Source: Larkinella soli
Lineage (GTDB): Bacteria; Bacteroidota; Bacteroidia; Cytophagales; Spirosomataceae
Direction of reading: 5' to 3'
Assembly: GCF_003703975.1 (NCBI RefSeq)
Contig: NZ_QTJY01000012.1
Location: 186,001-250,000, forward strand
Length of the DNA stretch: 64,000 bases
Positions 44,662 to 61,290 of the stretch are shown here, piece after piece. The stretch's first letter is position 1. Each line of letters begins with the position of its first letter. The notes under the pieces were generated by a model that saw nothing but the letters and a program-made list of their open reading frames with translations, was not told where the DNA came from and ran no database searches. The translations under genes were made by a program, and so were the position numbers.

Positions 44662-46098
44662 TCAGACCGCTTTTCTGAATTCCCGAATTTCACTGACCGA
44701 CAGCTTGAACAGCAGCGTCAGCACGACATAGACCATGCCGCCCAGCCCGATCTCCACGATGGTATGCGTCACCCCCTCGAACCCGATGAGCGACTTGTAG
44801 GTCGCCACCACTCCGATCATCAGCAGGCAGAAAATCACCGGCTTCATGACGTTGGCGAAAAACTCCCGGAGGAATTTCCCGATGAGCGAGTTGACGATGA
44901 AAAAGTTGAGAACCGTGTTGATGACGGTGGCCGTCAGGAAGGCCATGGCGATGCCGGTCAGCCCCCAGTTTTTGGCGAAGACGTACAGCAGCGGCACCTT
45001 GATGACCAGCGTCACGAGGTTCAGATAGAACAGCAGGTTCGGTTTACCTTTCGAGAAGGCCAGCGTGAACAGCGGGTGGCTCAGGCAGGTGAAAAAGCTG
45101 ACGAAAACGAAAATCCGGATCAGGTCGATGGTGGTTTCCCAGCCGGGGCCGTAGAACAGCGGCACGATGCTGTCGGCGGTGATGTACAGCCCGGCCAGCA
45201 GCGGCAGGTTGATGTAACTGATCAGGTCCAGAATCTGGATGTAGGACTTCTTCAGTTCTTCCTCGTTCTCCTTCATTTTAGCCAGCATCGGGTAGGCCAC
45301 CTGAAGCACGATCGGGTTCAGCCGCTGGATCGGGAAAACCGCCAGCTGCGACGCCAGCGTATAATACCCCAGCAGCTTGACGCCCAGCGTCCCTCCGACC
45401 ACCACATTGTCGGAGTTGGCCTGAATGAAGCCGATCAGCCCATCGCCGACGTTGTACATCCCGAAACGCAGGTGTTCCTTAATAATTTTCAGGTCGAAGT
45501 GCAGCACCGGCCGGAACAGGCCGTAGCCCGAAACGATCAGCAGAATCGTCTTGACGACCTGCATCGCCAGCTGCCCGTACATCAGCGACAGCTCCTCGAA
45601 GCCCTGGTAGGCCAGAAAAATAGCCACGCTCGTGCTGACGAAGGTGCCGATGATGTCGATCACCGCGACGGCCTTGAACCGCAGTTCTTTCTGAAGCAGG
45701 AAGGAATAGATCTGGCCGAAATAGACGATCAGGAAATACAGCGACGACAGTTTGACGACGCTGTCGAGCCGGGGTTCGCGGTAAAACGCAATGATCAGGG
45801 GCGCACTGAAGTACACGACCACCGAGATGATCGCACCCAGCGACAGGTTCAGCAGATAGAGCGTCGAAAGCACCTTTCGGTCACTCTCCTGCTTGTAAAT
45901 GATCGAGTTCGAAAAACCGAGGTTCCCGAAAATGTTGAAAAACGCAATGATCAGGGTGCTGACGCTGACCACCCCGAAAGCCGCCGGCTCCAGCAGCCGG
46001 GCCAGAATCGCGACCTGGAGAAACTGAAAGACCGTAGAGATGACCGTGGCAATGGTGATCCACTTCCCGCCGTTGATGGCTTTCTGCTTATTGCTCAT
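44662..46098 (-). CDS. Polysaccharide flippase, MOP superfamily (WzxC-like)
   Basis: The 478-residue protein has about 12-14 membrane helices. Its start, GGKWITIATVISTVFQFLQV followed by ARLLEPAAFGVVSVSTLIIA, is typical of lipopolysaccharide biosynthesis MOP proteins of the colanic-acid WzxC type. It would move undecaprenyl-linked repeat units across the inner membrane to the polymerase. This places the locus in the Wzx/Wzy-dependent class rather than ABC-dependent. The start is 60 bases from the Wzc-like stop. Confidence 0.92.
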   Translation of the reverse strand: MSNKQKAINGGKWITIATVISTVFQFLQVAILARLLEPAAFGVVSVSTLIIAFFNIFGNLGFSNSIIYKQESDRKVLSTLYLLNLSLGAIISVVVYFSAPLIIAFYREPRLDSVVKLSSLYFLIVYFGQIYSFLLQKELRFKAVAVIDIIGTFVSTSVAIFLAYQGFEELSLMYGQLAMQVVKTILLIVSGYGLFRPVLHFDLKIIKEHLRFGMYNVGDGLIGFIQANSDNVVVGGTLGVKLLGYYTLASQLAVFPIQRLNPIVLQVAYPMLAKMKENEEELKKSYIQILDLISYINLPLLAGLYITADSIVPLFYGPGWETTIDLIRIFVFVSFFTCLSHPLFTLAFSKGKPNLLFYLNLVTLVIKVPLLYVFAKNWGLTGIAMAFLTATVINTVLNFFIVNSLIGKFLREFFANVMKPVIFCLLMIGVVATYKSLIGFEGVTHTIVEIGLGGMVYVVLTLLFKLSVSEIREFRKAV

Positions 46099-46158: not shown

Positions 46159-48360
46159 TCAGGCATTGGTCGGAACCGGGTTTTTCGATTCGGTAAGGCG
46201 CTCCGGCTTCACCGGGCCGTCCTTCACCTCCTTCAGCGTCGGGGCCTGGATGTAGTCGCTCTCCACCCGGTTCAGCACCGTCAGCAGCGGATGGCCGGAT
46301 ACCTTCAGGTACATCGACAGCAGCTGCTTCTCGGTCCGTTTCCAGCTCCCCCGGGCGTTCAGCACCAGCAGGCCGACCGACGTCCGGCCCAGCAGCGGCA
46401 CCGGAATCGGGCTGCTGACGAAGGGCGGCAGTTCCAGAAATATCTTGTCGTAGCCGGCATTCTTCACCGTAATATCCTCATCGCTCAGGTCTTCCACCGC
46501 CGTCAGGTTCATGAAATCGGGCCGGATGGGATAGGGCAGATAGGTCACCCCGTACTGTTCGACGGCCTGGGTGTTTTCCTTCAGGCTGGGGTAGTAATAG
46601 GCAATCTTCTGGCCGGATTCGGCATAGACCCGGGCCAGGCTGCTCGCCACCCAGCTCTTGCCGTCCTGGGCGTGCATACTGAAGAGCGTGATGACCGGCG
46701 GGTGCGTTTTCTGGGCGCTCTGGGCCATTTCGATGTTGATGGCGCTACAGAGCTGTTCGAACATCGTCATGGCCGCGCGGCTTTCGCGGGAGTTGAGCGA
46801 GACTTTTTTGACGACCGGGAAGACGGCGGTCACCGGCCGGCCGGTTTTCGATTCGGCCAGGTCGGGCGTGCTGAGCCGCTGATCCGTCACGAATCGCAGG
46901 GCCGTCAGAAACAGGGCCAGGAACAACCCGACCCCCACCCCCGCTCCCACGAACAGCCAGCGTTTGGAAGCCGTCGGCACGTAGGGAAAGTTCGGCGCGT
47001 CGAGCACCGAAACCGAACCGTCGATCTGGATGTCCTGACGCTGGGTGTTGGCCTGATCAAGCCGGTCGATCACATCCAGATATTCTTTTTCGGCTACGCT
47101 CAGGTCGCGTTTGAGCTGGCTCAGCTGCGGTCCCAGGGGGCTGAAGGCGGCCGCTTCCTTATCGAAATCGGCCAGGCGTTTCCGGTAGATGTCCAGCCGG
47201 GCCGCCGACTCCTCGAAGGCCAGGACTTTGCCGAGCCATTCGTTGATCAGCGTCCCCTGCGGAACGTTGTCGGCCGAGTTGTCGGCGGCAAAATAGTTGC
47301 GGGCGATGACTTTCAATTCTTCCGAAAGCTGGAAGATTTTAGCCTGCAGGCGGTTCAGAACGGCCGTCGGCTGGTTGTTGGCCCGGGCGTTGACCAGCTG
47401 GCTCTCCACCTCGGTGATCTCGGCCTGCTTGTCGGTCAGTTCGGTGTTGATTTTCAGCAGGCCGCTGCGCTTGCCCATCCGGTTGTTGAGGGCTTCCATG
47501 GCGGCCTTTGCGGCCCGGTTGCGCATCAGTTCCTGCTGGTATTCGCTGAGCAGGGCTTCTTTGGTAAGCGCCATATTCTTCGACTCCTCGTCAAAGTTCA
47601 GCACCTTATGCCGGACGTTGAAGGCCTGCAGCCGGGCCTCGGCCGCATCGAGGTTCTGCTTGGCTTTCCGCACCTTATCTTCGTAATAGTTCACCACCGG
47701 GTTCGACTCCTTCTTCTTGATGGAGGTATACCGGTCGTTCAGCGATTCGATGACCAGATCGAGCGTTTGTTTGGCCACCGCCGGATCGTCGGCTTCGTAT
47801 TCCAGGTCGAGCATGTCGCTGAAGCTCCGGCGCGACGACTTGAGTTTTTTCCGGATCACCTCGACCGAATAATACGTGGGCGAGTTGAACAGCAGGGATT
47901 TGACCGGATTGTCGGTCTCGGCCTTCAGCAGGCTGTCGAGCATCAGGTCCGTAAAGGCCGGGTTGCCGGGCCGGACGAGTGATTTTCTCAGACCGGCCGG
48001 AATGAACAGCTGAAGTTTCTGAAAACCGGCGGCCGACAGCACGCGGTTATCCGGTTTCTGAAGCTGCAGGTGGGCGGCCAGCAGTTTTTTACCGGTTTCG
48101 GCCAGCGTCTCCTTGGAGTTGAGGGTCGTAATGATATTGTCGAATGCATTGCTGACGGCCGTGTAATCGACCCGAAAACCGGCGGTGGCCGAGTTCAGGG
48201 AGTAGCCGGAACCCAGGCCGGTATAGAGGGTAGCCTCCGACTTATAGGTCCGGGTTTCGTTCCGGGTCAGGTAGAAGATCGTGCCTGCCGTCAGGGCCGG
48301 AAACAGGATAAACCAGAGGGCGTGTTTCTTTAGGAGAGTTATAAACGTCTGAAGTGTCAT
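46159..48360 (-). CDS. Wzc-like chain-length/export protein with degenerate tyrosine-kinase domain
   Basis: The 733-residue protein has a membrane helix at 14-31, a periplasmic part with long coiled coils (about 230-440), a second helix at 468-490 and a cytoplasmic ATPase-like domain (540-700), as in GumC/Wzc copolymerases. The nucleotide site is degraded. The P-loop reads MHAQDGKSW (about 562-570), the Walker A-prime aspartates are replaced by IAYYYPS (586-592), the Walker B-like stretch is FLELPP (642-647), and the C-terminus has no tyrosine cluster. It may regulate chain length and connect to the outer membrane without autokinase activity. It lies 9 bases after the TolC-like gene. Confidence 0.88.
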   Translation of the reverse strand: MTLQTFITLLKKHALWFILFPALTAGTIFYLTRNETRTYKSEATLYTGLGSGYSLNSATAGFRVDYTAVSNAFDNIITTLNSKETLAETGKKLLAAHLQLQKPDNRVLSAAGFQKLQLFIPAGLRKSLVRPGNPAFTDLMLDSLLKAETDNPVKSLLFNSPTYYSVEVIRKKLKSSRRSFSDMLDLEYEADDPAVAKQTLDLVIESLNDRYTSIKKKESNPVVNYYEDKVRKAKQNLDAAEARLQAFNVRHKVLNFDEESKNMALTKEALLSEYQQELMRNRAAKAAMEALNNRMGKRSGLLKINTELTDKQAEITEVESQLVNARANNQPTAVLNRLQAKIFQLSEELKVIARNYFAADNSADNVPQGTLINEWLGKVLAFEESAARLDIYRKRLADFDKEAAAFSPLGPQLSQLKRDLSVAEKEYLDVIDRLDQANTQRQDIQIDGSVSVLDAPNFPYVPTASKRWLFVGAGVGVGLFLALFLTALRFVTDQRLSTPDLAESKTGRPVTAVFPVVKKVSLNSRESRAAMTMFEQLCSAINIEMAQSAQKTHPPVITLFSMHAQDGKSWVASSLARVYAESGQKIAYYYPSLKENTQAVEQYGVTYLPYPIRPDFMNLTAVEDLSDEDITVKNAGYDKIFLELPPFVSSPIPVPLLGRTSVGLLVLNARGSWKRTEKQLLSMYLKVSGHPLLTVLNRVESDYIQAPTLKEVKDGPVKPERLTESKNPVPTNA

Positions 48361-48369
48361 ACGGTCGGC

Positions 48370-49161
48370 TTATTTACGTTTCAGTTGCTGGATGGGCACC
48401 CCCACGACGGCTTCCAGATTGTATAGATTTTTCAGAAATTCCCCTTTTGCCTGCTCGGCCGTCGATTTGGTCTGGGCATAGCGGTTCATATTGTAGGCAT
48501 GAGCCTCGGGCGTTACCTTTCCCTTCTGGATTTCCACTTCGGCGATCCGGAAGGCGGCCAGGGAAGCCTGTTCGTCTTCCAGCCGCACGTGGAGCACGCG
48601 CTGGGCGGTCAGCAGGTCCTGATACAGCCCGATGAGTTCCCGTTTGAGTTGCAGTTCGAAGGCTTCCCGGCGGTAAAGGGCGGCCTGCTGGTTGGCCCGG
48701 GCCAGCCGGATCTGCTGCGGCCGCCCGAAGATGTCGTGCAGGCTGATCGACAGCTGGACTCCGGTGCGGTAACCGTTCGAAATCTGCCCCAGAACGTCTC
48801 CGCTGCCCGCGCCGGTGGAAATGATGGCCTGGTTACCGGTCGAATAATTGACGAAAGCCACCCCGTTCTGCAGCACCTGCATCCTGGACAGCTTGTAGGA
48901 AGCGTTATAGCCCACGGTCATTTCCTTTTCGAACTTGACCTGGGGCGAATTTTTGACGGCCAGCTGATACAATTCCTCGAAAGGCAGCAGCTGGACGGAG
49001 ATGTCTCTGTTGAAATCGAAATAAACCGAGTCCGATACCGCCAATCCCTGCACCACCGGCGCCGGTTGGGCCGGTCCGTTGCCCTGGGCGAAGCTTTGTC
49101 GGACAAGTGTAATAAAAAGAAAAAACAGAGCGAGTCGGCTCAGCGTGGTATAGGTTTTCAT
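48370..49161 (-). CDS. Half-size TolC-family (OEP-like) outer-membrane protein
   Basis: I place the start at the ATG at 49161 (263 residues), directly before a signal peptide ending SFAQ; ATGs at 49173 and 49215 are possible. The mature protein matches one OEP repeat: LPFEELYQLAVKNSPQVKFE, then a strand pair around YRTGVQLSISLHDIFG. Long amphipathic helices follow (RELIGLYQDLLTAQRVLHVR, KSTAEQAKGEFLKNLYNLEA). Full TolC proteins have two such repeats and are over 400 residues, so this is about half. It is cotranscribed immediately before the Wzc-like gene, where a Wza-type export protein would normally stand. Confidence 0.75.
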   Translation of the reverse strand: MKTYTTLSRLALFFLFITLVRQSFAQGNGPAQPAPVVQGLAVSDSVYFDFNRDISVQLLPFEELYQLAVKNSPQVKFEKEMTVGYNASYKLSRMQVLQNGVAFVNYSTGNQAIISTGAGSGDVLGQISNGYRTGVQLSISLHDIFGRPQQIRLARANQQAALYRREAFELQLKRELIGLYQDLLTAQRVLHVRLEDEQASLAAFRIAEVEIQKGKVTPEAHAYNMNRYAQTKSTAEQAKGEFLKNLYNLEAVVGVPIQQLKRK

Positions 49162-49309
49162 AGTGGTTCCCATCGGTACGGGGCAAAGAGGCTGATCTCG
49201 CCGATACCGGTGCAATTATTGTTCCATTCAGGCCGGCCCGTCCCATTTAAATGAACTTTAACTGGTTTATTAAAAAGGGATTAAACCGGCTTTTCCGGTC
49301 AAAGCGCGT

Positions 49310-50566
49310 TTATTTCGATCCGGAGGTTTTATGAACCAGTGCGTTCCGGTGCGGCTCCGGTTCGGGCGGCCCGGCCGACCAGGCGGCCGGTATCCGGCGG
49401 AGAACGGCTTCGAACTCTTCGGCCCGTTTTGCCCAGGTGTTCCCCTGGGCCATCTCCACCCGTTTCCGGATACGGAAAGGCGTATTGTCGGACAGTCCCC
49501 GGCGCAGCGCCTGGGCAAATTCTTCCGGCGTTCCGGCCAGTTCGATCACCCCGTTGAAATCGTCGAGGATCGAGAAGGGCGTCGACACCACCGGCAGCCC
49601 GGCCGCCAGATACTCGTTGATCTTCAGCGGATAGATCGTATAGGTGTGTTCGTTGCAGGCAAACGGAATCATGGCCGCCGACAGCTTTGCCAGCAGCGGA
49701 GGCAGGTCCGCCGGCTGGTGGGGCGGGATAAACTCCACATTCGGGTATTTCGACAGGGCGGCCAGCCGCGGCTCCTTCACCTCCCCGATGAAGCGGAACG
49801 TGACGTCCGGCATCGTGCGGGCGCAATATTCGACCAGATCGACGTTGACCCGGTTATCGGCCGTTCCGAGGTAACCCACCACGGGCGTCGTGGGCGGATT
49901 CTCCCGGGCCAGCTTCCGGGCGGTATGGAACAGGTCGAAATTCGCCCCGTTCTTGACGCAGAAGGCGTTCGGCTGCAATACCGACTTGGCCTGCCGAAGC
50001 GTTTCGGAAGTCGTCACGACGGCGTGGACCCGCCGGAGATACTCCTGCTCGTAGCGGTGTCCGTGGCGGCTCATCCAGTTGCCGGCGGTGGTGATTTCGT
50101 CGAAACAGTAATAAATCGTCGCGCACTCGTTCAGCTGCCCCAGCATCGGCACCCCCCAGACCGGGTTGAAGGCGTTGATTACCAGCGGCCGCTTCATGTC
50201 CAGCTTTTTCATGACCCGGCGCAGCCCCTTCACCAGCCGTCCGACGTTCCAGTGGATCAGCCGGTCGTGCGCTTCCTGGTCCATCCAGTTGATGGGCAGC
50301 ATCAGGGGCGGCACCCACACCCAGGCTTCTCCGCCGTTGTCGAAGGTCCGCTTCGTCAGCGGGTCTTTCAGCCGGACCAGCTCGCGCACCGGCGCCGGCT
50401 GGCGTCCGCGCAGGCCGTTGACGAAGTCCTTGACGGTATACTGGTAATCCACATAAATCATGCGGTGCCGGACCGATAACTCGGTGGTCAGCTGCACGAT
50501 GGCTTTCTGGAAGTCTCCCTGCCAGGGCGTCTGACTGATGCAGATAATACTGTCGAATTTTTCCAT
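49310..50566 (-). CDS. GT4-like glycosyltransferase
   Basis: The 418-residue protein starts MEKFDSIICISQTPWQGDFQ. GT-B features include HAVVTTSETLRQAKSVLQPN, VVGYLGTADNRVNVDLVEYC (hinge and start of the C-terminal domain), and the donor-binding IYPLKINEYLAAGLPVVSTP, where KxxEYLAAGxPV is typical of GT4-like enzymes. The N-terminal part is like teichuronic or rhamnan glycosyltransferases TuaH and similar. The donor sugar is not known. It lies 12 bases after the polymerase gene. Confidence 0.88.
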   Translation of the reverse strand: MEKFDSIICISQTPWQGDFQKAIVQLTTELSVRHRMIYVDYQYTVKDFVNGLRGRQPAPVRELVRLKDPLTKRTFDNGGEAWVWVPPLMLPINWMDQEAHDRLIHWNVGRLVKGLRRVMKKLDMKRPLVINAFNPVWGVPMLGQLNECATIYYCFDEITTAGNWMSRHGHRYEQEYLRRVHAVVTTSETLRQAKSVLQPNAFCVKNGANFDLFHTARKLARENPPTTPVVGYLGTADNRVNVDLVEYCARTMPDVTFRFIGEVKEPRLAALSKYPNVEFIPPHQPADLPPLLAKLSAAMIPFACNEHTYTIYPLKINEYLAAGLPVVSTPFSILDDFNGVIELAGTPEEFAQALRRGLSDNTPFRIRKRVEMAQGNTWAKRAEEFEAVLRRIPAAWSAGPPEPEPHRNALVHKTSGSK

Positions 50567-50578
50567 AAGGGCGGTCGG

Positions 50579-52030
50579 CTATGCGGTGACGGGCTCCCGG
50601 CCGGCAGCGTCCGGACGGCAATCCCAGCGGTAACAGGTCGTAAAAAGGATCGAAGCGATGTAGATGAGGCTGCTGGTCGGAAACTGCCCCAGAACGGGGT
50701 TGGAGTAGCCCATGACGGCAATCCCGAAGAACTCGGCCAGAAAAGCGAACATGATCTTGACCAGCCAGGGGTCTTTCAGCCGCAGGACGTGGTAGGCGCC
50801 CACCCCGATGAAAGCCGCCAGCATACAGAGGTAGAGCGTCAGTCCCACCCGGCCGGTTTCCATCCAGAGTTCGACGTACCAGCTGTCCGGGGCGATCTGG
50901 GCGGCCCAGTGCCAGGGCGAAAACCGCGCACCTCCGTCGGCCGAGGTGCCGATGCCCGCTCCGAACGGCAGGCGCTCCAGGTGGGCGGCAATCTTGCGCT
51001 GGTTCTCCAGCCGCAGCAGGAACGAGGGATCGTTCATCGGCGTTACGGCCGAACGCATCCGCTGCACCTGGTAGTTGGAACTGCCCACGCTGGTATACAT
51101 CAGCAGGAACAGCAGCGGCAGGGCGGCACAGACGCCGATCAGCAGCTTGACGAAATCCCGCTTCAGCAGCAGATAGAACGGAAAACCGGCCAGCAGCACG
51201 AACAGCGCACTGCGCGTCCCCGAAACCGCATACCCCCAGAAAAATACCAGGGCCAGGACGAAGAACAGGGCTTTGGAAAGCCAGTTCTTTTCTTCAAAGA
51301 TGCGGATGATGCTCACCAGCGTCACCCCGGCCATCTCGGCCCCGAACTGCGCGGCATCCGAATAAAACGAGAAGCTCCGCAGCTGTCCGAAAAGCACGTG
51401 GGTTTTGGCGTTGCCGTTGTCGAGCCAGGCCTGCTCGCCGGCCGTCAGACCGACATACTGCTGCTTGAAGGCCCAGAAAGCCGCCAGCACCGACCAGAAC
51501 AGCCACGAATTCACCAGAATTTTGATATCCTTCCGCTGAATCGGGTTGACCAGCACGATGATCGCGACCAGCAGCCAGTTCCAGGAAAAAGACCGGATGT
51601 GCAGGAACCAGGCCGGCCGGTAGGGCGCTTCCGGGTTGAACAGCTCCAGGACATTATAAATAAACCAGATCAGAATCAGGAAGAAAGCCGGCTTTTTCAG
51701 CCGTTCCCACTGCATCCGCTTCCCGTTCAGGAAGGTACTCATCAGGGTCAGACCCACGATGGCATCGATGGCGATCCCGACCGGCGCATCCACCGGCAGC
51801 AGCCGCGTAAAGCCGATCAGAAAGCTAAGCTGGACATAAATCAGCAGGCCAAGCCGGGGTTCGATCAGCACGCCCAGCACCAGTGCCAGCGCCACCGGCA
51901 GCACCACCACCGCTACCGAAGCCACCAGCCCGAATTTCCCGATCAGGAAACCGGAGCCCAGCGCGGCCAGCACGCCCAGGAGGCTGTAGAACCAGCGCCG
52001 GTTCGAAAGGTGGTTCGAGAGTGCGTTCAT
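50579..52030 (-). CDS. O-antigen ligase/polymerase-family membrane protein (Wzy-like)
   Basis: The 483-residue protein has about 10-12 membrane helices and a large periplasmic loop (about 330-390, QRMRSAVTPMNDPSFLLRLE and AHLERLPFGAGIGTSADGGA). These match the O-antigen ligase/Wzy_C pattern, including the loop motif GxGxG near the H/W-rich segment FSPWHWAAQIAPDSWYVELW. It would polymerise flipped repeat units in the periplasm. The start overlaps the stop of the GT2 gene by an ATGA, so they are coupled. Confidence 0.87.
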   Translation of the reverse strand: MNALSNHLSNRRWFYSLLGVLAALGSGFLIGKFGLVASVAVVVLPVALALVLGVLIEPRLGLLIYVQLSFLIGFTRLLPVDAPVGIAIDAIVGLTLMSTFLNGKRMQWERLKKPAFFLILIWFIYNVLELFNPEAPYRPAWFLHIRSFSWNWLLVAIIVLVNPIQRKDIKILVNSWLFWSVLAAFWAFKQQYVGLTAGEQAWLDNGNAKTHVLFGQLRSFSFYSDAAQFGAEMAGVTLVSIIRIFEEKNWLSKALFFVLALVFFWGYAVSGTRSALFVLLAGFPFYLLLKRDFVKLLIGVCAALPLLFLLMYTSVGSSNYQVQRMRSAVTPMNDPSFLLRLENQRKIAAHLERLPFGAGIGTSADGGARFSPWHWAAQIAPDSWYVELWMETGRVGLTLYLCMLAAFIGVGAYHVLRLKDPWLVKIMFAFLAEFFGIAVMGYSNPVLGQFPTSSLIYIASILFTTCYRWDCRPDAAGREPVTA

Positions 52031-53238
52031 GAATGTGCCTTAAGTTCCACCTCCCCGGCCCGGCGGACTTTCTCCCAGGTGCCGGACTGATTGCCCCGCA
52101 GGTACCGGACCAGACCGGCCAGCGCGCAGACGTTCATGAAGGTGAAATAGAATGGAACAAACAGGAGCTTCCAGCGCAATTGCTTCTTTTCCAACCCGTA
52201 CCCCACCCAGGCGGCTCCGTAAAAAAGACATTGCAGGGCCAGCAGCACCGTCCAGCCCAAACCGGAGGAGTCGGCGGAAGTCAATGCCCCGGCCGCCAGC
52301 CAGACATTGGCCAGAAAAATCAGGGGCAGACACAGGGGCGCCACCGCCCACCGCATAACCCGGTGGGAAACGTATTCGAACGTCAGCACCCCGTAGCGGA
52401 ACGGGTTCAGAAGGTGTCTGAGCCGCACGATCGACTGAAAGCCGCCGGCCGCAATCCGGATTTTGCGCTTCTGTTCGTCCAGAATCGAGAACGACGGCCG
52501 CTCCATGGCATAGGCGTCGGGCGCGTAGGCGACACGGTAACCACGCCCGGCAATCCGGAGCGAAATGATGAAATCGTCGAGGATGGTATCCGTCTCGACC
52601 GGCTCGTACAGTTCGGTCCGGACGGCGAAAAGCTCTCCGGCGGCCCCCACGATGGTTTGCAGTTCGGCATCCCAGCGTTTGAGCTGCGACTCGTATTTCC
52701 AGTAAAGCCCTTCTCCCGACCCGGCTGCCGATTCGCTGTCTTCGGTCATGATCCGCTTTTCGCCGGCCACGGCCCCGACCTGCGGATCGCGGAAGTGTTC
52801 GACGAGGTTGCGGACGGCCTGCGGGTTCAGGTGCGTATTGGCATCGGTAAAAATGGCGATCGGCGTTTTGACGCGCAGCATGGCCTTGTTCATGGCGGCA
52901 ACCTTGCCCAGCCGGTCCGGCCCGCCCAGCACCCCGACGCGGTCGCCGAATTCGGCGCGCAGATACTCGTCGGAGCCGTCGTTGGAGCCTTCCGTTACGA
53001 ACAGAAAATGGATGTGTTCGGCCGGATAGTCCTGCGCCAGGGAGTTGGCGACCTTGGCCGGCAGGAACGCGCGTTCGTTGTAGGCCGGAACGATCAGCGT
53101 CACGTCGGGTGTAAAAGCGGTCTGGGGGGCGCTTTCCTTCCGGCGGCCCCGCAGTTTGAGTAGGATCCAGACCAGCAGCCCGTATCCGAGGTAGGTATAC
53201 AGCACCAGAGCTACGCCAATCGCCAGAATAATTTCCAT
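52027..53238 (-). CDS. Membrane GT2 glycosyltransferase
   Basis: The 403-residue protein has an N-terminal membrane helix (MEIILAIGVALVLYTYLGYG). The GT-A domain has VTLIVPAYNERAFLPAKVAN, AIFTDANTHLNPQAV (metal-binding DAN variant of DxD) and DTILDDFIISLRIAGRGYRV with the catalytic aspartates. About four helices follow near the C-terminus. This resembles processive and membrane-linked GT2 proteins of exopolysaccharide operons. Its stop overlaps the polymerase start by four bases. Confidence 0.9.
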   Translation of the reverse strand: MEIILAIGVALVLYTYLGYGLLVWILLKLRGRRKESAPQTAFTPDVTLIVPAYNERAFLPAKVANSLAQDYPAEHIHFLFVTEGSNDGSDEYLRAEFGDRVGVLGGPDRLGKVAAMNKAMLRVKTPIAIFTDANTHLNPQAVRNLVEHFRDPQVGAVAGEKRIMTEDSESAAGSGEGLYWKYESQLKRWDAELQTIVGAAGELFAVRTELYEPVETDTILDDFIISLRIAGRGYRVAYAPDAYAMERPSFSILDEQKRKIRIAAGGFQSIVRLRHLLNPFRYGVLTFEYVSHRVMRWAVAPLCLPLIFLANVWLAAGALTSADSSGLGWTVLLALQCLFYGAAWVGYGLEKKQLRWKLLFVPFYFTFMNVCALAGLVRYLRGNQSGTWEKVRRAGEVELKAHS

Positions 53239-53260: not shown

Positions 53261-54214
53261 TCAGTGAATATCGGCCACCACCGCCGGGCCGGCTTTGGCC
53301 GGTCGGCGCACCTTGTGGGTGAGGTTCCAGACGACGGCCCGGCGAAGCGCCTTCAGGTAGTCGTTCTGCCGGCGCAGGGCATAGACAAGGGCGGCCTTGG
53401 GAAGGGCCACCGTAAAGTAAAAGAGGTAAAAAACCAGCAGCGGAAAGCCCGAGACGTTCCGGCGCATGAACAGCAGCCGGTTGCGGGTGTTGTAATACAC
53501 CTTCATCGGGTTGGTCTTGCCCACGCTGATCGACTCTTTATGGTAGATTAGCGCCGACGCCTGGTAATAGATTCTGAATCCGGCCCGCCGGATCTGCATC
53601 GACCAGTCGAGTTCTTCATAATAAAGGAAAAACGACTCGTCCATCGCGCCGGCCACCTCGATGGCCCGGCGGCTGACCATCATGGCCGCGCCGTGGGCAA
53701 AGGCCGTCGGCCCCGACGTATCGTGCTGGCCCTGATCGGTTTCGTGCAGGCCGATGGCCCAGGTCCGGCCCGTATACGGGTTCAGCGGGTAATAGCCGGC
53801 GTATTGAATCACCGTCGGATGGTCGAAATACCGGATCTTGGGGCAGACCAGGCCCACCTGCGGATCGGCCGCAAAGGGAGCGAGCAGCTGCTCGATCAGG
53901 TCGGGCGTCACGACGGTGTCGTTGTTGAGCATGAAAAAATACGCGCCGGAGGCATGCCGGAGACCCAGGTTGTTGCCGCCCGAAAATCCGAGATTCTCCC
54001 GGCTGACGACCACCTTCACGTTGGGGTAATGGCCCCGTTCGATGAGGTCGGTGGGGTCTTCGGCCGAGCCGTTATCGACCACGATCGTCTCGAACCGGGG
54101 GTACGTCAGGTTCCGGGTCGATTCGAGCAGATCGCAGGTCACCTTCGCCTGGTTGTAGTTGATGGTGATCAGCGATACCAGCGGTACGGTGCTTACACGT
54201 TCTCCTTCTGCCAT
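53261..54214 (-). CDS. GT2 glycosyltransferase (rhamnosyltransferase-like)
   Basis: The 317-residue protein has the GT-A signature VSLITINYNQAKVTCDLLES, with FETIVVDNGSAEDP, and the metal-binding FMLNNDTVVTPDLIEQ (NND in place of DxD), typical of WcaA/RfbF-like rhamnosyltransferases. ESFFLYYEELDWSMQIRRAG contains the catalytic ED pair. A hydrophobic segment (LLVFYLFYFTVALPKAALVY) near the C-terminus may contact the membrane. It overlaps the end of the sugar transferase gene by 22 bases. Confidence 0.9.
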   Translation of the reverse strand: MAEGERVSTVPLVSLITINYNQAKVTCDLLESTRNLTYPRFETIVVDNGSAEDPTDLIERGHYPNVKVVVSRENLGFSGGNNLGLRHASGAYFFMLNNDTVVTPDLIEQLLAPFAADPQVGLVCPKIRYFDHPTVIQYAGYYPLNPYTGRTWAIGLHETDQGQHDTSGPTAFAHGAAMMVSRRAIEVAGAMDESFFLYYEELDWSMQIRRAGFRIYYQASALIYHKESISVGKTNPMKVYYNTRNRLLFMRRNVSGFPLLVFYLFYFTVALPKAALVYALRRQNDYLKALRRAVVWNLTHKVRRPAKAGPAVVADIH

Positions 54215-55407
54215 AGCGCTTTCACCGTTCGGATGAGAATCAGAAGGTCGGTTTTGAACGAATACGTCTTGGCGTAGAGCACGTCGAGCTGGATGCGCTC
54301 CTCGTCCGACACGGCGGCCTTGCCCCGCTTGGTCACCTGCCAGAGCCCGGTCAGGCCGGCCGGAGCCGCAAACCGGCGGGCGTAGCCCGTAGCGGTCAGT
54401 TTTTCGGCCTCATACAGCGGCAGGGGCCGGTTGCCGACAAACGACATATCGCCTTTCAGGATGTTGAAAAACTGCGGCAGTTCGTCGATGCTGGTATTCC
54501 GCAGAAACTTACCCAGACGCGTCACGCGCGGATCCTCCTTGAATTTCGAGAACATGGCTTTCGCCTTCTGGCTCCGGAAATAGGCCTCTTCGCAGATCTG
54601 GCGGTTGTCCAGGAACAGCGGCCGCTGGCATTCCGTGCCGTTGCTTCGGCAGGCATCGCACAGCTGTTCGAGGGGCTGCTCGGCGCCTTTCTTGCTGTAC
54701 ATGTTCAGCGACGCCATGCCGGCCAGCATCTTGTCGGCGTCGGTCCGCATGGTCCGGAACTTGTACATATCGAAAATCTTGTATCCCGTTCCGACCCGTT
54801 TCGACCGGTAGAAGACCGGCCCTTTCGAGTCGAGTTTGATCAGGATCGCCACGACGATCAGCAGCGGGGAAATCATCAGCAGCAGCATCGACGACAGCGC
54901 GATGTCGAAAAGCCGCTTCCCGACCGGGATCCGGATCGAAACCGTCTTCTGGCGCTCATGCGGAGAATTTTTATACGCTTTCTTCTGAACCAGGTAGTTC
55001 AGTCGGGTCCGGAAAGCCTGCACCGGGATACTTTCGGGGAATACGTCGATCACGTGGCCTTTGAAGGGTTCCTCGGCCAGCCGGACCGCCGACCGGTCTC
55101 CGAGCAGGATGACGGGCAGTTCCCTGAAACGGCCGTCTTTCTGGAGCGGTTTCAGAAATTCCCCGCTGCCCAGCCGGGTGTTGAACACGACCAGGTCGAT
55201 GGTGGCGTCCGCCTTCAGACGGGTAAGGGCTTTCGCCCGGTCGGCGTCGGTCAGCACGGTCACCGGTCCGCCGAAGGTTTCGGTGAACGAGGCAACCCGT
55301 TTCGGATCGTCCTCGACGAGAAGGACCCGAAATGTCGTCCGTCCATCCGAAGCCGGTTGTCCGGACGAGGTTTTTGCGGAAGTTTCCACTGCTTTTGAAC
55401 GGCTCAT
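54193..55407 (-). CDS. Priming polyprenyl-phosphate sugar phosphotransferase with N-terminal pseudo-receiver
   Basis: The 404-residue protein is a fusion. Residues 26-140 form a receiver-like domain (FRVLLVEDDPKRVASFTETF) whose phospho-acceptor is Asn (N76 in LVVFNTRLG) and whose lysine is missing (IDVFPESIP). Residues about 161-404 are a bacterial sugar transferase: a re-entrant helix with S180-P181, KFRTMRTDADKML, the catalytic D308-E309 in SIDELPQ, KGDMSFVGNRPLPLYEAE and GLTGLWQVT. A four-cysteine insert (C250, C253, C260, C272) lies in the catalytic domain. It puts the first sugar phosphate on the lipid carrier. A complete response regulator is encoded 9 bases upstream. Confidence 0.92.
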   Translation of the reverse strand: MSRSKAVETSAKTSSGQPASDGRTTFRVLLVEDDPKRVASFTETFGGPVTVLTDADRAKALTRLKADATIDLVVFNTRLGSGEFLKPLQKDGRFRELPVILLGDRSAVRLAEEPFKGHVIDVFPESIPVQAFRTRLNYLVQKKAYKNSPHERQKTVSIRIPVGKRLFDIALSSMLLLMISPLLIVVAILIKLDSKGPVFYRSKRVGTGYKIFDMYKFRTMRTDADKMLAGMASLNMYSKKGAEQPLEQLCDACRSNGTECQRPLFLDNRQICEEAYFRSQKAKAMFSKFKEDPRVTRLGKFLRNTSIDELPQFFNILKGDMSFVGNRPLPLYEAEKLTATGYARRFAAPAGLTGLWQVTKRGKAAVSDEERIQLDVLYAKTYSFKTDLLILIRTVKALWQKENV

Positions 55408-55416
55408 GGCGGTGGC

Positions 55417-55824
55417 TTAGCGATTCATTGAATTTCCCGTCCGGTGTTCGGCCCGACGTAACACCGCCATGATTTTGGCTTTGACTTCCAGCGGGTTGAA
55501 CGGCTTGATCATGTAGTCGTCGGCCCCCAGTTCCAGGCAGGTGATCCGGGTGTTGCTGTCGTCGTACGTCGACAGAATGATTACGGGGAGGTGCTGAAAG
55601 AGGGCGCTGGCCCGAATGGTCCGGATCAGATCCTGACCGCTGAAGTGCGGCATCTGAAGGTCGGTAAGGATGATATCGACGGGGTTTCCCTCCTCCAGAT
55701 ACGTCATCGCTTCCATCCCGTTGGTCTGGGTGATCACCTCGAAGTCGGCTTTCAGGGTATGACGCAATACTTTCCGGATGAATGTGTCGTCTTCCACCAC
55801 AAGGACACGATACTGGCTTTCCAT
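55417..55824 (-). CDS. Single-domain response regulator preceding the priming transferase
   Basis: The 135-residue protein is a complete receiver: VVEDDTFIRKVLRH for the acidic pocket, IILTDLQMPHFSG with D55 as the phospho-acceptor, ILSTYDDS for the switch residue, and DYMIKPFNP with K107. There is no output domain. It is the first gene of the polysaccharide operon, 9 bases from the pseudo-receiver/sugar transferase fusion and 468 bases after the Hpt gene. It is a natural acceptor for the phosphorelay encoded upstream. Confidence 0.94.
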   Translation of the reverse strand: MESQYRVLVVEDDTFIRKVLRHTLKADFEVITQTNGMEAMTYLEEGNPVDIILTDLQMPHFSGQDLIRTIRASALFQHLPVIILSTYDDSNTRITCLELGADDYMIKPFNPLEVKAKIMAVLRRAEHRTGNSMNR

Positions 55825-56292: not shown

Positions 56293-56667
56293 TCAGCCCA
56301 GGCGCTGTAATTCTTCTTCAAGGACAGGAGTCATCCGGGAAAGGCCGGCCCGGAACTGCGACCAGTGCGTCTGCAGAGCCTGAGGGTCGGGGCCGGTTTT
56401 AATCTGACTTTCAAGGTCTTTCAATGAGGATTCGAGGCTCGTCAGCCCGACGAGGCCCAGCCAGGGCCGAAGCTGATGCGATAGGCCGGCCAGTTCCTCC
56501 CAGTCCTGGCGGCAGACGAGGTTGTCCATCTCCAGAAAATTGGACAAAACGTCGGAAAGGAACATCTCGATGGCCGACGCGATCATGCCGTCGTCGTCGG
56601 CGTGGAGCTGTCGAAGTCGTTCATGATCCAGGCGGTGTCCATGGACTTCATTCGGATGGGTTTCCAT
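56293..56667 (-). CDS. Hpt (histidine phosphotransfer) protein
   Basis: The 124-residue all-helical protein carries the phospho-accepting H64 in LSHQLRPWLGLVGLTSLE, the Bacteroidota form of the HxLK...G motif. It has no other domain. It starts 11 bases after the hybrid kinase stop and would take the phosphate from that kinase's receiver to a soluble response regulator, with the one at 55417-55824 the nearest candidate. Confidence 0.88.
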   Translation of the reverse strand: METHPNEVHGHRLDHERLRQLHADDDGMIASAIEMFLSDVLSNFLEMDNLVCRQDWEELAGLSHQLRPWLGLVGLTSLESSLKDLESQIKTGPDPQALQTHWSQFRAGLSRMTPVLEEELQRLG

Positions 56668-56678
56668 AAATTACTCCT

Positions 56679-58208
56679 TTAATTCAGCCGGTTGCAGTAT
56701 CTGGCGATTTTCTGAAACAGGTCGTTGGGATTGAAAGGTTTTGTTACATAATCGTTGATGCCCGCGCTGATCGCCCGGTCCTTGTTGCTGTAGGTGGCCG
56801 AGGCCGTCAGCGCGATGACCGGAATGTGGGAATTCGTCGAGCGGATCTTTTCGGTCGAGGTATAGCCGTCCATCACCGGCATCTGGAGGTCCATCAGGAT
56901 CAGGTCGTAATTGCCCTTCTGGAACTTCTCGAACCCGATCAGCCCGTTTTCGGCCACATCGACCACGACTCCCCAGCGGCTGAGAAATTTCAGGGCTACG
57001 TTCACATTGACCGGATAATCCTCGACCAGCAGAATCCGGAGCCCTTTCAGGGTCTGGTCGTTGATCGAATCGACGGAATTGAAGGTCTGTGACGGCTTGG
57101 CCGCCTTCCCGATCCGGAGGTCGAGCGTAAAAAAGAACCGGGCGCCTTTGCCCTCTTCGCTTTCCAGCTGAATCGTGCTGCCATAGAGTTCGAGCAGTTT
57201 GCGGGTAATGACCAGTCCCAGCCCGGTTCCGCCGTACTGGCGGGTGGTGGCCGAATTGGCCTGGGTGAACATATCGAAAATCGCTTTCTGCTTCTCCGGG
57301 GGAATACCGATACCGGTATCCTCGACCGAAAGGTACAGCGTGGCCCGGTCCTGGGTTTTGTGCTGGAGCGACAGCTCGATCGTGACGGTTCCTTTCCTGG
57401 TGAACTTGATGGCGTTGGAAACCAGGTTGGAAAGCACCTGCCCGATACGGAGCGAGTCGCCCAGAAGCGAATCGGGCACATCGTCGTCGACCATGAGCCG
57501 GATGCGGGTCCCGTTTTCCTCGGCCCGCAGCTGGTGGGCGCGTTTGATGTTCGAAACGAGGTGTTTCAGGTCGAAGGCCATTTCCTCCAGTTCGACTTTT
57601 CCCGCTTCGATCTTACTGAAATCCAGAATATCGTTGATCAGGGCGTGCAGGTGCTCGATGGAGAACTGAAGCGTCTTCAGGTTTTCGGCAATCGCAGGCG
57701 GCACGTCTTCCTGAAGCATCAGATAGGTCATCCCGACGATCCCGTTGAGGGGCGTCCGGATTTCGTGGCTCATCATGGACAGAAACTCGGATTTGGCCTG
57801 GGTGGCACTCTCGGCCACCTCCTTTGCCGTCCGGAGTTCCTGTTCGATCTTCTTCCGGCGGTCGATCTGTCTCTGAAGAAAATCGACCAGGGAAACCAGA
57901 TTCTCAGGGTCCAGGTCCGGCAGATTATCGTCGTCCGGCATCTCCATGGACTGGATGGCCTCGATCAGTTTTTCTTCCGACTGCTGGCGCTGCCTGATTT
58001 CTTCCTTTAACTTCTGATTGATGGTTGCGTATTCGCGTTCGTTCAAAAAATAAGAGTGTTCGAACAGCTCCTTATCGCGGTCAAAACTCATATACGAATC
58101 GTTGACGGCCTTGACAAAAGCCTGAAACCGCTCGTGCTGCAGACATTCCGGCGTAAGGTGTTTATTGATTTGCCGGGCCAGCAGCTTATGCAGATCGTTA
58201 GTTTCCAT
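56679..58208 (-). CDS. Cytoplasmic hybrid histidine kinase with C-terminal receiver
   Basis: The 509-residue protein lacks membrane segments. A helical and coiled-coil N-terminus (1-140) precedes HisKA with H148 in [12 protein letters not shown], a HATPase domain ([43 protein letters not shown]) and a receiver (about 391-507) with D440 in [15 protein letters not shown]. Lacking its own sensor domain, it probably takes input from the FIST protein encoded 3 bases upstream. The signal would pass His148 to Asp440 to Hpt His64. Confidence 0.94.
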
Positions 58209-58211
58209 GGA

Positions 58212-59351
58212 TCAGTTCTCCGAGAAGGCGGTTACGGTCATCGTTTGATTATGCAGTTCACAACGCGCGCTGGGCTGGAGCGGGGAAATCTCCCCGTAGG
58301 AGTAAAAGCCGGTAATGACCGGGCCGGGGCCGAACATTTCCCGGGCGGCTTCAATTTCTTCGTCCGTACGCTGGCCCAGAACAAGTTTGCGGCCCACGCA
58401 GCTGATCAGGATGGCCAGTTCGGGTTCAAAATCCGCCCGGCCCAGCGAGGTATGGGCGGCCGTCGCGGAGGCATCGATCAGGCGGTCGAAGTTGGCGGTC
58501 ATGAACCGCACCAGCGCCTTCTCCGGCATCTCTCCGGCAAACGTCATACTTTTGGTTTCCTCATCGATCGTCAGGATCGTGCGCACCAGGGGCTGCGAGT
58601 CCTGCGTGGCCCGCATCGACAGCGGGAAGAGCAGGGCGGCCCCCGGCAGATCGTCGGCGTACTTGCCCAGGTATTCCTTGTAAAGGTCCAGAGCGGCCTT
58701 ATCGTCGATCTGATACAACACGTTGTAGGCCGAACGGGTCACTTCGCGCTCGGGCCCGAACACATCCCACCCGCCCATCGAGCCGTGGCCGACCCGGAGG
58801 CTGTCGCCGTAAAAGCCTACGCCCACCACCTTCCCGACCTCCGGGTGCTGGTTGAGGCCCACCAGCGTTTTTTCAAACCGGGCCGCATCGCCCGCCAGAC
58901 CGCCGGAAATGGGAATCGGCCGCTGTAAACGATCGTTCAGGGCGGCCGTCAGGTCGCTGCCGTTCACCCGCCCGCCGTCCGAAATGATGAACACGGCCGC
59001 CAGATCGGGTTCGTCCAGCGCTTCGGCCATCCGCTCACCGGCCCGGAAGCTCTCGGTATGATCGGCAATGTCGATCTGCACCGCCCGAACCGCCGTTTTC
59101 TCGAACTCGACGGCCGTAATGACCACCGAATCGTCGTGGACCTTGTCGAGGTAGATTTCACCGGAGGTGGAATTGATGATCACGTCGGCGGCCGGAAACA
59201 TTCGGCGGAGGTCGTCGTATAAGCCGGGCGTTTCCAGCAGCTTTCGCTCGCCGAACGCCAGCACCAGTTGCGCCTTTTCAGCCTGAAATCCCGGAGTTTC
59301 ACTGAGCCGGTTCCATTCCTGGTTGATAAAGACGGATTGATTGAGTCGCAT
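58212..59351 (-). CDS. FIST-domain sensory protein
   Basis: The 379-residue protein has FIST N- and C-terminal domains: DVIINSTSGEIYLDKVHDDS and ISGGLAGDAARFEKTLVGLN in the first, and VLYQIDDKAALDLYKEYLG and GFYSYGEISPL in the second. FIST domains are proposed from comparative genomics to bind small ligands such as amino acids and to feed histidine kinases. It has no signal peptide, so it would sense inside the cell. It is the first gene of the FIST-kinase-Hpt unit and the likely signal input. Confidence 0.93.
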   Translation of the reverse strand: MRLNQSVFINQEWNRLSETPGFQAEKAQLVLAFGERKLLETPGLYDDLRRMFPAADVIINSTSGEIYLDKVHDDSVVITAVEFEKTAVRAVQIDIADHTESFRAGERMAEALDEPDLAAVFIISDGGRVNGSDLTAALNDRLQRPIPISGGLAGDAARFEKTLVGLNQHPEVGKVVGVGFYGDSLRVGHGSMGGWDVFGPEREVTRSAYNVLYQIDDKAALDLYKEYLGKYADDLPGAALLFPLSMRATQDSQPLVRTILTIDEETKSMTFAGEMPEKALVRFMTANFDRLIDASATAAHTSLGRADFEPELAILISCVGRKLVLGQRTDEEIEAAREMFGPGPVITGFYSYGEISPLQPSARCELHNQTMTVTAFSEN

Positions 59352-59859
59352 AAAGGCCTTAGTTGTGTAAATCGGTTAGAACAGGAAAAGTATGAGTTAG
59401 CAGTCAGCAAAAACCAGGCCTGCACGGCCATCGGGCATCGATAAGTATTTTTACCCGAAGTCCGACTCTTGTAACCACCTTCCTTCTTCCTCTTTCTACC
59501 TCCGCTACTCCTGCTCCGACGCCGTGAAGACGCGAATGAAAAAGAAAGATCGGCACCCTATTACCAGACACGCATATAGGGCAATAATCATGCTAATGTA
59601 ACCGGGCGGTGGCAAATTGTTTGGTAAATATTCCCGAACCGGCCGGGCGGGCCGCTGAAACCGGAATCGCATCCTGCGGATTTCCCGGGTTCCCGGAAGG
59701 GGCCGGCAGGCCGGCGGAAAATCCCGACCAGGCACGACCGCGGAAAAAAGACGGCCGATGTTCCGACAAATACCTGGCCCGCGGAGTTGCGCGCATACGG
59801 TAATTGTACTTAATTTGGTTTTTTTGACTCCTGTTGTGCACCTTAACGTTTTACCAGCA
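59352..59859. other. 508-bp divergent intergenic region
   Basis: The gap separates the FIST gene (minus) from the sigma-54-activator-like gene (plus) and must drive both. A minus-strand TACTTTTC at 59385-59392, with a TTTTTG run at 59408-59413, is a weak candidate for the FIST promoter. The right end holds a better plus-strand candidate listed separately. I find no supported ORF or RNA gene. Confidence 0.5.
59787..59817 (+). promoter_or_regulatory. Candidate promoter of the sigma-54-activator-like gene
   Basis: A TTG at 59787-59789 and TTAATTTG at 59810-59817 are 20 bases apart and match the Bacteroidota -33/-7 layout with one mismatch in the -7 box. They lie about 43 bases before the ATG at 59860. 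Confidence 0.45.
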
Positions 59860-61290
59860 ATGGCCCCCTGCCGCATTTTCATTGTCGAAGATGATCCCTG
59901 GTATGGAGAAATTCTCAAGTACCATCTCTCTCCGGATTCCGAGTATGAAGTTCATCTGTTTACCAGTGGTCTTGCCTGTCTGAAAAACCTCGGCAGACAG
60001 CCTGATCTGCTGATCGTCGGCTTTTCCTTTTCCGACATGAACGGGACGGAGCTGTACCAGAAAATCCGGAAAACGCTTCCCACGGTCCCGGTCATCGTCA
60101 TCGGCCGGCCGGCCGAGGTTCGGAGCGGACTCCACTTACTGAAGCAGGGCGTATATGACCTTTTCGTCAAGGACGAAAACACGAAGGAGCTTCTCTGGAA
60201 TGCCGTGCAGAGGATCCGGGAGAAACACCATCTGCTGCAGCAGATCGCGGACCTGCGGGAGGAACTGGGAAGGAGCTATGCCTTCGGCCACCGGCTTCAG
60301 GCCGAAAGCGAGGCCATGCGGCACCTCTTTTCACAAATGGAAGCCCTGCTTCCGTTCGACCATCCGGTGCTGATCACGGGGGAAGCCGGAACAGGAAAAA
60401 CACTGATCGCCAGAGCCATTCACAGCCGGTCCGCCCGCCGGCAGAAACCGCTGGTGACCGTCGACCTGGGCTCTCTTCCGGCCGAACAGACGGAAATCGA
60501 ATTGTTCGGCCAGGGAAAAGGACCGTTTGCGGACGCTCCGGGTCAGAAGAAAGGTAAAATCGAAGAAGCCGCGCAGGGCACTCTGCTGCTGGAAGAAATC
60601 GCCGAGCTGAACCCGGCCCTTCAGGGCCGACTGCTTCGGCTCCTCCAGGAAGGAGAAATGGTTCGGGTCGGCGGAAACGAACGTATCCGCCCGGAAGTCC
60701 GTATCATCGCCACCACCGGACGGAATCTGGGCGAGGCCGTGCGGAAGGGCATGTTCCGCGAAGACCTCTACACCCGCCTTTCAGGATTGTCGATCCTTGT
60801 ACCGCCCCTGCGCGAACGGGCCGACGACCTCCTGCCCCTGGCCCGGTATTTCCTCGACGAATTCTGCCGCCGGAACCACCGGCCGCCCATCGCCATGGCA
60901 GGCGGGGTAAAGGACCGGCTGCTGGGCCATTCGTATCCGGGCAACGTGCGCGAACTGAAAACGACGATGGAAACGGCCGCCGTTCTGTCCGCCGGCCCGG
61001 CAATCCGGCCGGAGGATATCGTGTTCGACACCAGAAAAGCCGGTCCGCTGCTGATGACGGAGGAAAAGACCCTGCGCGAACACATGGCCCAGATCATCCA
61101 TCTGTACCTGAAAAAGTACAACTACAACGTGCTGGAGGTGGCCGCCCGGCTGGGCGTCGGAAAATCGACCATCTACAAGATGATCCAGGACAATGAACTC
61201 TCCCCCTTCATCGAACGGCCTCTGACCGGCCCTGCGGCTCTGCCCGGTGCAGCCCATAATCGAAACCGGATGTCGGGGCCGGTCAGCTGA
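59860..61290 (+). CDS. Sigma-54-activator-like regulator with degenerate receiver and altered GAFTGA loop
   Basis: The ATG at 59860 gives 476 residues. The receiver (5-118) has FIVEDDPWYGEIL, but the phospho-acceptor position is glycine (G54 in LLIVGFSFSDMNG); its lysine (FVKDEN) remains. The AAA+ domain (about 140-370) has an intact P-loop GEAGTGKT (174-181), Walker B GTLLLEEIAEL, and FREDLYTRLS. The loop that contacts sigma-54 reads GPFADA (221-226) instead of GAFTGA. A Fis-type helix-turn-helix (VLEVAARLGVGKSTIYKMIQ) ends the protein. It may act without phosphorylation or without sigma-54. The last 8 bases overlap the convergent oxidoreductase gene. Confidence 0.88.
   Translation: MAPCRIFIVEDDPWYGEILKYHLSPDSEYEVHLFTSGLACLKNLGRQPDLLIVGFSFSDMNGTELYQKIRKTLPTVPVIVIGRPAEVRSGLHLLKQGVYDLFVKDENTKELLWNAVQRIREKHHLLQQIADLREELGRSYAFGHRLQAESEAMRHLFSQMEALLPFDHPVLITGEAGTGKTLIARAIHSRSARRQKPLVTVDLGSLPAEQTEIELFGQGKGPFADAPGQKKGKIEEAAQGTLLLEEIAELNPALQGRLLRLLQEGEMVRVGGNERIRPEVRIIATTGRNLGEAVRKGMFREDLYTRLSGLSILVPPLRERADDLLPLARYFLDEFCRRNHRPPIAMAGGVKDRLLGHSYPGNVRELKTTMETAAVLSAGPAIRPEDIVFDTRKAGPLLMTEEKTLREHMAQIIHLYLKKYNYNVLEVAARLGVGKSTIYKMIQDNELSPFIERPLTGPAALPGAAHNRNRMSGPVS

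Follow-up and report, generated by a model that had tools for sequence, protein, structure and literature searches.

A single-domain response regulator (RR) and the phosphoglycosyl transferase (PGT) that would prime polysaccharide synthesis are encoded side by side in the window that we analyzed, a stretch of 64,000 nucleotides from Larkinella soli, and a comparison of related loci indicates that the two genes form a module that is found across the Bacteroidota. We consider it highly probable that the two proteins are direct functional partners. At its N-terminus, the PGT carries a receiver-like domain that has lost its complete phosphorylation site, and the case that this pseudo-receiver serves as the adaptor for the RR appears to us about evenly balanced.

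The fusion protein and its operon

The PGT is encoded by an open reading frame that is present on the minus strand (54193..55407) and specifies a protein of 404 aa, in which the pseudo-receiver precedes the catalytic domain. The catalytic domain, which is WbaP/PglC-like, comprises residues 162-404 (54196..54924, minus strand), and residues 164-398 match the Pfam family Bac_transf (PF02397) with an E-value of 6.6e-61. The residue pair D308-E309 (54481..54486, minus strand), which we take to be the catalytic Asp-Glu by analogy to the role of this pair in PglC, is invariant in 14 of 14 alignment rows, and a catalytic-domain profile built from 20 diverse relatives matches the structures of WbaP and PglC. 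The invariant catalytic residues rule out a broken enzyme, and this half of the protein is predicted to be an intact PglC/WbaP-type enzyme; an earlier reading of the DNA (the sequence-only reading) had claimed an intact sugar transferase. By virtue of its Bac_transf domain and its Asp-Glu dyad, the protein is a member of the monotopic phosphoglycosyl transferases (monoPGTs). The N-terminal four-helix membrane bundle and DUF that characterize the large monoPGTs (WbaP/EpsZ type) were not found in the 404-aa protein; the TIGR03025 model aligns only from its position 255 of 445, and residues 25-147 are receiver-like instead. AlphaFold2 modeled the catalytic part with low confidence both in a full-length run and alone (mean pLDDT of 59.9 when modeled alone).

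Within the catalytic domain lies an insertion containing four cysteines, C250, C253, C260, and C272 (54592..54660, minus strand), which are invariant in 14 of 14 rows and are spaced as C-x2-C-x6-C-x11-C over residues 250-272. The four-cysteine pattern is present at 106 of the 167 family loci surveyed below (86 of 118 with a degenerate N-terminal receiver, 18 of 34 with no N-terminal domain, and 2 of 15 with a canonical receiver), and these cysteines might bind a metal or serve a redox function close to the active site.

The pseudo-receiver spans approximately residues 25-147 (54967..55335, minus strand) and was recognized using AlphaFold2, Foldseek, and its sequence likeness to domain D2 of PleD. 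Its match to the Pfam family Response_reg (PF00072) lies under the threshold (14.3 bits vs. 30.2, E-value of 0.046, residues 28-122). With a 14-row alignment as input, AlphaFold2 predicts residues 31-140 with a mean pLDDT of 86-94 per ten-residue block, and the predicted order of strands and helices is that of a receiver except at helix 4, where residues 103-118 form no helix as long as four residues. The top PDB matches of the predicted fold in Foldseek are DivK and other receivers, the best with an E-value of 1.4e-5 and a TM-score of 0.84 by target. The AlphaFold2 model and the Foldseek and profile matches rule out a chance likeness to receivers, and the receiver fold that had been claimed for the N-terminus on the basis of the sequence is thus upheld.

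The domain retains the acidic pair D33-D34, has an asparagine at the phospho-acceptor position (Asn76; 55180..55182, minus strand), and has no lysine aligned to the conserved lysine position. In PMC12632262, a pseudo-receiver is defined as a recognizable receiver without key phosphotransfer residues. Residues 25-147 fit this definition, since they possess the fold of a response regulator (PF00072) while Asn76 and the absent lysine leave them without the phospho-acceptor Asp and conserved Lys. Both of these features had been noted in the sequence-only reading and are confirmed for the L. soli protein, but asparagine itself is not a conserved trait. Among 27 non-redundant orthologues, column 76 contains Asn in 16, Ser in 6, Asp in 2, and Gly, Leu, and a gap in 1 each; in 118 degenerate domains, the acceptor column contains Asp in 28, Glu in 21, and Asn in only 12, although this profile alignment is unreliable in its most divergent rows. 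What these N-terminal domains have in common is not the asparagine but a phosphorylation site that is no longer complete.

Two alignments of N-terminal domains were used for profile comparisons. The alignment of the window's family contains 23 of the 33 survey domains of family f1 together with those of the window and three named loci, and the divergent alignment contains 73 of the 80 other domains together with that of the window. Response_reg is matched with an E-value of up to 0.1 by 15 of the 27 rows of the former and by 40 of the 74 rows of the latter. CoA_binding_3, which we take to be the name of the kind of N-terminal domain found in large monoPGTs, is absent among the Pfam matches listed for the 27-row set and for the 74-row set (25 of 27 families shown), and an N-terminal domain of that kind was rejected on these grounds.

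The RR gene (55417..55824, minus strand) encodes a protein of 135 aa that matches PF00072 with an E-value of 8.4e-26, and 9 bases separate the end of its open reading frame from the start codon of the PGT. The complete phosphorylation site of the RR (D12, D13, D55, S85, and K107) agrees with the earlier claim that a true receiver is encoded 9 bases upstream. Preceding the RR gene by a gap of 468 bases are genes for an Hpt phosphotransfer protein with the motif LSHQL (56293..56667; PF01627 at the cut-off, 24.6 bits), a hybrid histidine kinase with HisKA, HATPase_c, and receiver domains (56679..58208), and, first in the series, a FIST-domain protein (58212..59351; PF08495 and PF10442) that is the probable sensor input of the kinase. 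The PGT gene is followed by a gene for a GT2 glycosyltransferase whose 5' end overlaps the 3' end of the PGT gene (53261..54214), and then by genes for a second GT2 glycosyltransferase (52027..53238), a Wzy/O-antigen ligase-type polymerase (50579..52030; PF04932), a GT1-type glycosyltransferase (49310..50566), an outer membrane efflux-type protein (48370..49215; PF02321), a Wzc/Wzz-like chain-length protein (46159..48360; weak matches, under the cut-offs), a Wzx-like flippase (44662..46098; Polysacc_synt_3), and further glycosyltransferases and acyltransferases, all of these genes being on the minus strand.

The FIST protein and the hybrid kinase faintly resemble the nitric-oxide sensor pair NosP/NahK, a likeness that is weak (35.4 bits vs. 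a cut-off of 450 and 174.7 bits vs. a cut-off of 400, the latter score being exceeded by many other kinase models). Divergent from the operon is a gene for a sigma-54 activator (59758-61290, plus strand) whose receiver has Gly at the phospho-acceptor position (LLIVGFSFSDMNG), making it a second degenerate receiver that adjoins the operon.

At all 15 named loci from Larkinella, Spirosoma, and Arsenicibacter, the RR gene lies immediately upstream of the PGT gene, whereas the FIST, kinase, and Hpt genes precede this pair in 7 of 7 Larkinella loci and in 0 of the 8 others. Three of these eight (L033-L035) have other kinase genes upstream, and in L035 the PGT open reading frame is broken. Thus, the RR-PGT pair is the constant part of these loci and the kinase input is the variable part.

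Pairing of response regulator and transferase among relatives

Of 241 genomes of the order, 79 encode homologues of the PGT (E-value of up to 1e-60), as do 60 of 395 genomes of the class (1e-50) and 45 of 395 genomes of the phylum (1e-45), these three sets overlapping one another. A script was used to class 167 distinct PGTs drawn from the order (94 regions), the class (53 new loci), the phylum (14 new loci, matches in genomes G881, G889, G912, and G972 being left out), and 5 earlier loci. An upstream RR was scored when an open reading frame of less than 260 aa on the same strand and within 700 nt matched the receiver profile with more than 80 bits. By this measure, a single-domain RR is encoded upstream of the PGT at 140 of the 167 loci, including 53 of 53 from the class survey. 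The distance between the two genes ranges from -38 to 660 nt and is 161 nt or less in 137 cases. All 140 of these RRs possess the conserved lysine, and their acceptor residue is Asp in 126, Glu in 12, and another residue in 2. As a control, we inspected 29 ordinary sugar-transferase open reading frames at 28 loci, a non-random choice of weaker matches from the genome of the window and from related genomes; none carries a receiver of its own, and a same-strand receiver gene lies within 1.2 kb on either side of 0 of the 29.

A receiver-like domain is present on 133 of the 167 family PGTs, the receiver match being weak in families f77 and f53. Where this domain is degenerate (118 loci), an RR is encoded upstream at 116 (101 canonical, 12 with Asp changed to Glu, and 3 other), the exceptions being L162 and L296. 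This distribution favors the proposal of the sequence-only reading that chain initiation is under the post-translational control of a two-component system. Relatives that lack the domain with no change in gene order had been named as evidence against that proposal, and they were found in part: the PGT has no N-terminal domain at 34 loci, of which 24 keep an upstream receiver gene, or 22 of 32 once L157 (a broken open reading frame with the RR 660 nt away) and L144 (a neighbor without a phosphorylation site) are set aside.

The 12 RRs with Glu in place of Asp (L077, L084, L092, L094-L098, and L103-L106, all of family f1) keep the lysine, and six genomes that encode such an RR also hold a second, canonical RR-PGT pair. 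The Glu-acceptor RR looks like a duplicated, locked-on copy. Given the substitution of the acceptor, the pair at these 12 loci would be unable to answer to phosphate. These loci form one or two clades, inside which L089 reverts to Asp, and they therefore weigh little. The PGTs of L277 and L278, which belong to family f101 and come from outside the class, have a near-canonical receiver of their own with a Glu acceptor and a retained Lys, together with a canonical RR upstream, and this arrangement may represent an intermediate stage.

At the 15 loci where the PGT's own receiver is canonical, a same-strand RR is encoded upstream in 0. All 15 of these fusions belong to one family, f18, and each of the fused receivers scores higher against free RRs (81-117 bits) than against degenerate domains (34-67 bits). 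Across the surveyed loci, then, a live receiver either adjoins the PGT gene or is part of the PGT, which appears to be the pattern expected of interacting partners that have become fused. On a catalytic-domain tree of 136 of the 167 loci, from which near-copies and short catalytic parts had been removed, parsimony yields 3 changes for the canonical fusion, yet constraining the fusions to a single clade gives a higher likelihood (p-AU of 0.98), so independent origins were not accepted. Since one common clade has not been rejected, the 15 fusions should not be counted as 15 separate observations; we take the canonical fusion to have arisen in one to three events, and there are not enough independent pairs to yield a usable statistic on the fusion/RR pattern.

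In a receiver tree that is poorly resolved (128 columns, 137 rows), the free receivers nearest to the fused receivers of L108 and L124 are RRs adjoining PGTs of the same family, and for 8 of the 10 fused receivers included, the PGT-side RRs are more distant than other free receivers. Upstream of four canonical fusions (L155, L158, L159, and L160) are two divergent single-domain receiver genes at 130-781 nt, two more fusions are followed 2.8-4.6 kb downstream by a free receiver gene of opposite orientation, and 9 of the 15 have no free receiver gene in the stretch read. As for the degenerate domains, 102 of the 114 with any match are closer to the family RRs than to other receivers and 12 show the reverse; since the comparison set is unbalanced (136 family RRs and 59 other receivers), this is only suggestive of a derivation of the pseudo-receiver from the neighboring RR.

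A proposed switch and its alternatives

We propose that a phosphorelay would switch a Wzx/Wzy-type polysaccharide operon at the first committed step. Judging from the gene order and the intact motifs, the FIST sensor, hybrid kinase, and Hpt protein would deliver phosphate to the single-domain RR. The phosphorylated RR (RR~P) would then act directly on the adjoining PGT, as suggested by the conserved pairing, the canonical-receiver fusions in relatives, and the precedent of EpsW and EpsZ. The pseudo-receiver is probably an old degenerate copy of a receiver that was fused to the PGT, and RR~P would pack against this adaptor as D1 packs against D2 in PleD, thereby bringing PGT chains together or into an active state. 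The whole would amount to a PleD-like switch that is split over two genes and has a sugar-phosphate transferase as its output. Taken in its entirety, with the phosphorelay, the contact through which RR~P acts on the PGT, and the pseudo-receiver as a PleD-like adaptor, this explanation could in our judgment equally well be right or wrong. The half that concerns the action of the RR on the PGT is well backed by the comparative data and by precedent, and the adaptor half draws on the likeness to PleD and the prevalence of receiver-like domains (133 of 167), with the domain-less relatives that retain an RR speaking against it.

When the pseudo-receiver is searched as a single sequence, its best solved match is domain D2 of PleD (E-value of 0.004), with Asn opposite Asn, and it matches the NCBIfam PleD model at positions 142-280. 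PleD is likewise the top match of the window-family profile of 27 domains, with an E-value of 2.8e-15 over PleD residues 155-276, which correspond to D2, and the next other protein follows at 4.1e-10. The divergent profile (73 domains and that of the window) also has PleD at the top, but its best stretch is D1. In PleD, as described in PMC12632262, phosphorylation of the receiver alters its contact with the pseudo-receiver, leading to dimerization and activity, and the likeness to D2 suits a pairing of the L. soli pseudo-receiver with a true receiver. Among 14 close relatives, the mean entropy is 1.32 bits in the helix-4 region, 1.04 bits in strand 5, and 1.00 bits in helix 5, compared to 1.46, 1.77, and 1.72 bits in helices 1, 2, and 3; this contrast, drawn within the pseudo-receiver only, is compatible with an interface at the less variable region.

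The target of the RR might instead be the part of the PGT that is catalytic or faces the membrane, the pseudo-receiver being a spacer or a dimerization domain that does not bind the RR. Such direct action would account for the RR upstream of 22 of the 32 intact domain-less relatives and for family f12, in which an RR is present beside forms both with and without the N-terminal domain, and it would resemble the model of EpsW on the DUF and catalytic domain of EpsZ that is given in PMC12802240. However, a receiver-like domain on 133 of 167 PGTs would be a surprising choice for a spacer, and the window-family profile is best matched by PleD D2. We regard this reading as possible but unlikely. Since the intact domain-less relatives mostly keep the RR, the RR-PGT pairing is independent of the pseudo-receiver, and because of this independence the pseudo-receiver is more likely to be an adaptor or modulator than to be the only docking site.

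Autoinhibition, the second idea of the sequence-only reading, in which the pseudo-receiver would block the active site until RR~P displaces it, is also compatible with the RR-PGT pairing, but the 34 of 167 loci without the domain would then be unblocked, and yet they mostly keep the RR; we give this reading little credence. Mere co-transcription, with the RR serving another process such as motility or another enzyme, is compatible with the gene neighborhood alone and with the variation of the upstream kinase module between genera. It appears very improbable given that a receiver gene is near 0 of the 29 ordinary PGTs, some of which are from the same genomes, and given that a canonical receiver is fused to this same enzyme at 15 loci. 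Finally, it is scarcely credible that the pseudo-receiver is a small-molecule sensor independent of the RR, as in the kinase ShkA, whose pseudo-receiver binds c-di-GMP (PMC7010744), since column identity is low across the pseudo-receiver group.

Extending the PleD-like adaptor to the phylum, we tentatively suggest, while holding it somewhat more doubtful than not, that a Bacteroidota-wide "split PleD" would exist, in which the free live receiver would join with the dead receiver of the PGT as a hetero-receiver pair and thereby turn on the first committed step, and which individual lineages would have rewired by fusion of a live receiver, by loss of the dead receiver, or by an Asp-to-Glu lock. 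Control over the spending of polyprenyl phosphate on surface polysaccharide is known mostly at the level of transcription. If the proposed switch is real, then much of the Bacteroidota would be able to switch the priming enzyme quickly at the post-translational level, with a logic akin to that of myxobacterial EpsW/EpsZ and a built-in pseudo-receiver in addition. If the "split PleD" is real, then pseudo-receivers would have a general job as docking partners of true receivers encoded next door. The activation and inactivation mechanisms of bacterial pseudo-receivers are called a mystery in PMC12632262, and this family offers more than 100 natural pairs, fusions, losses, and Asp-to-Glu variants for a direct test of one such mechanism.

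Comparison with known systems

In Myxococcus xanthus, according to PMC12802240, phosphorylated EpsW stimulates EpsZ, and a 2:2 complex has been modeled in which EpsW contacts both the DUF and the catalytic domain of EpsZ. The same source cites a survey by O'Toole, Imperiali and Allen 2021 (PNAS) that reportedly found receiver domains on small monoPGTs, which share with the L. soli protein the presence of a receiver domain on a PGT. Given these two precedents, an RR that acts on a PGT is not a novelty, and neither is a PGT that bears a receiver. In the literature that we searched, which mostly lay outside subscription papers, we found no report from the Bacteroidota of a PGT that carries a pseudo-receiver and is paired with an RR.

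As in the EpsW/EpsZ system, a single-domain RR in L. soli is encoded with the initiating PGT of a Wzx/Wzy-type exopolysaccharide, and post-translational control is proposed. EpsZ differs in that it belongs to the large monoPGTs and contains a DUF as well as four transmembrane helices, whereas only the catalytic part of the L. soli PGT matches models of that type and a pseudo-receiver stands in front of it. Moreover, the RR and PGT genes are adjacent in L. soli, and the activity of EpsZ has been assayed, whereas the L. soli pair is known from its sequence. PglC and WbaP have the catalytic domain in common with the L. soli PGT, which is set apart from both by its N-terminal pseudo-receiver and its four-cysteine insertion.

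PleD of Caulobacter consists of a receiver, a pseudo-receiver, and a diguanylate cyclase, and thus resembles the L. soli pair in combining one live receiver, one dead receiver, and one enzyme. A single-chain fusion of RR, pseudo-receiver, and PGT was found at none of the 167 loci, at which the longest N-terminal part is 215 aa. Unlike PleD, in which all three parts belong to one chain, the L. soli system has its live receiver as a separate protein encoded by a separate gene, and it has a PGT as its output.
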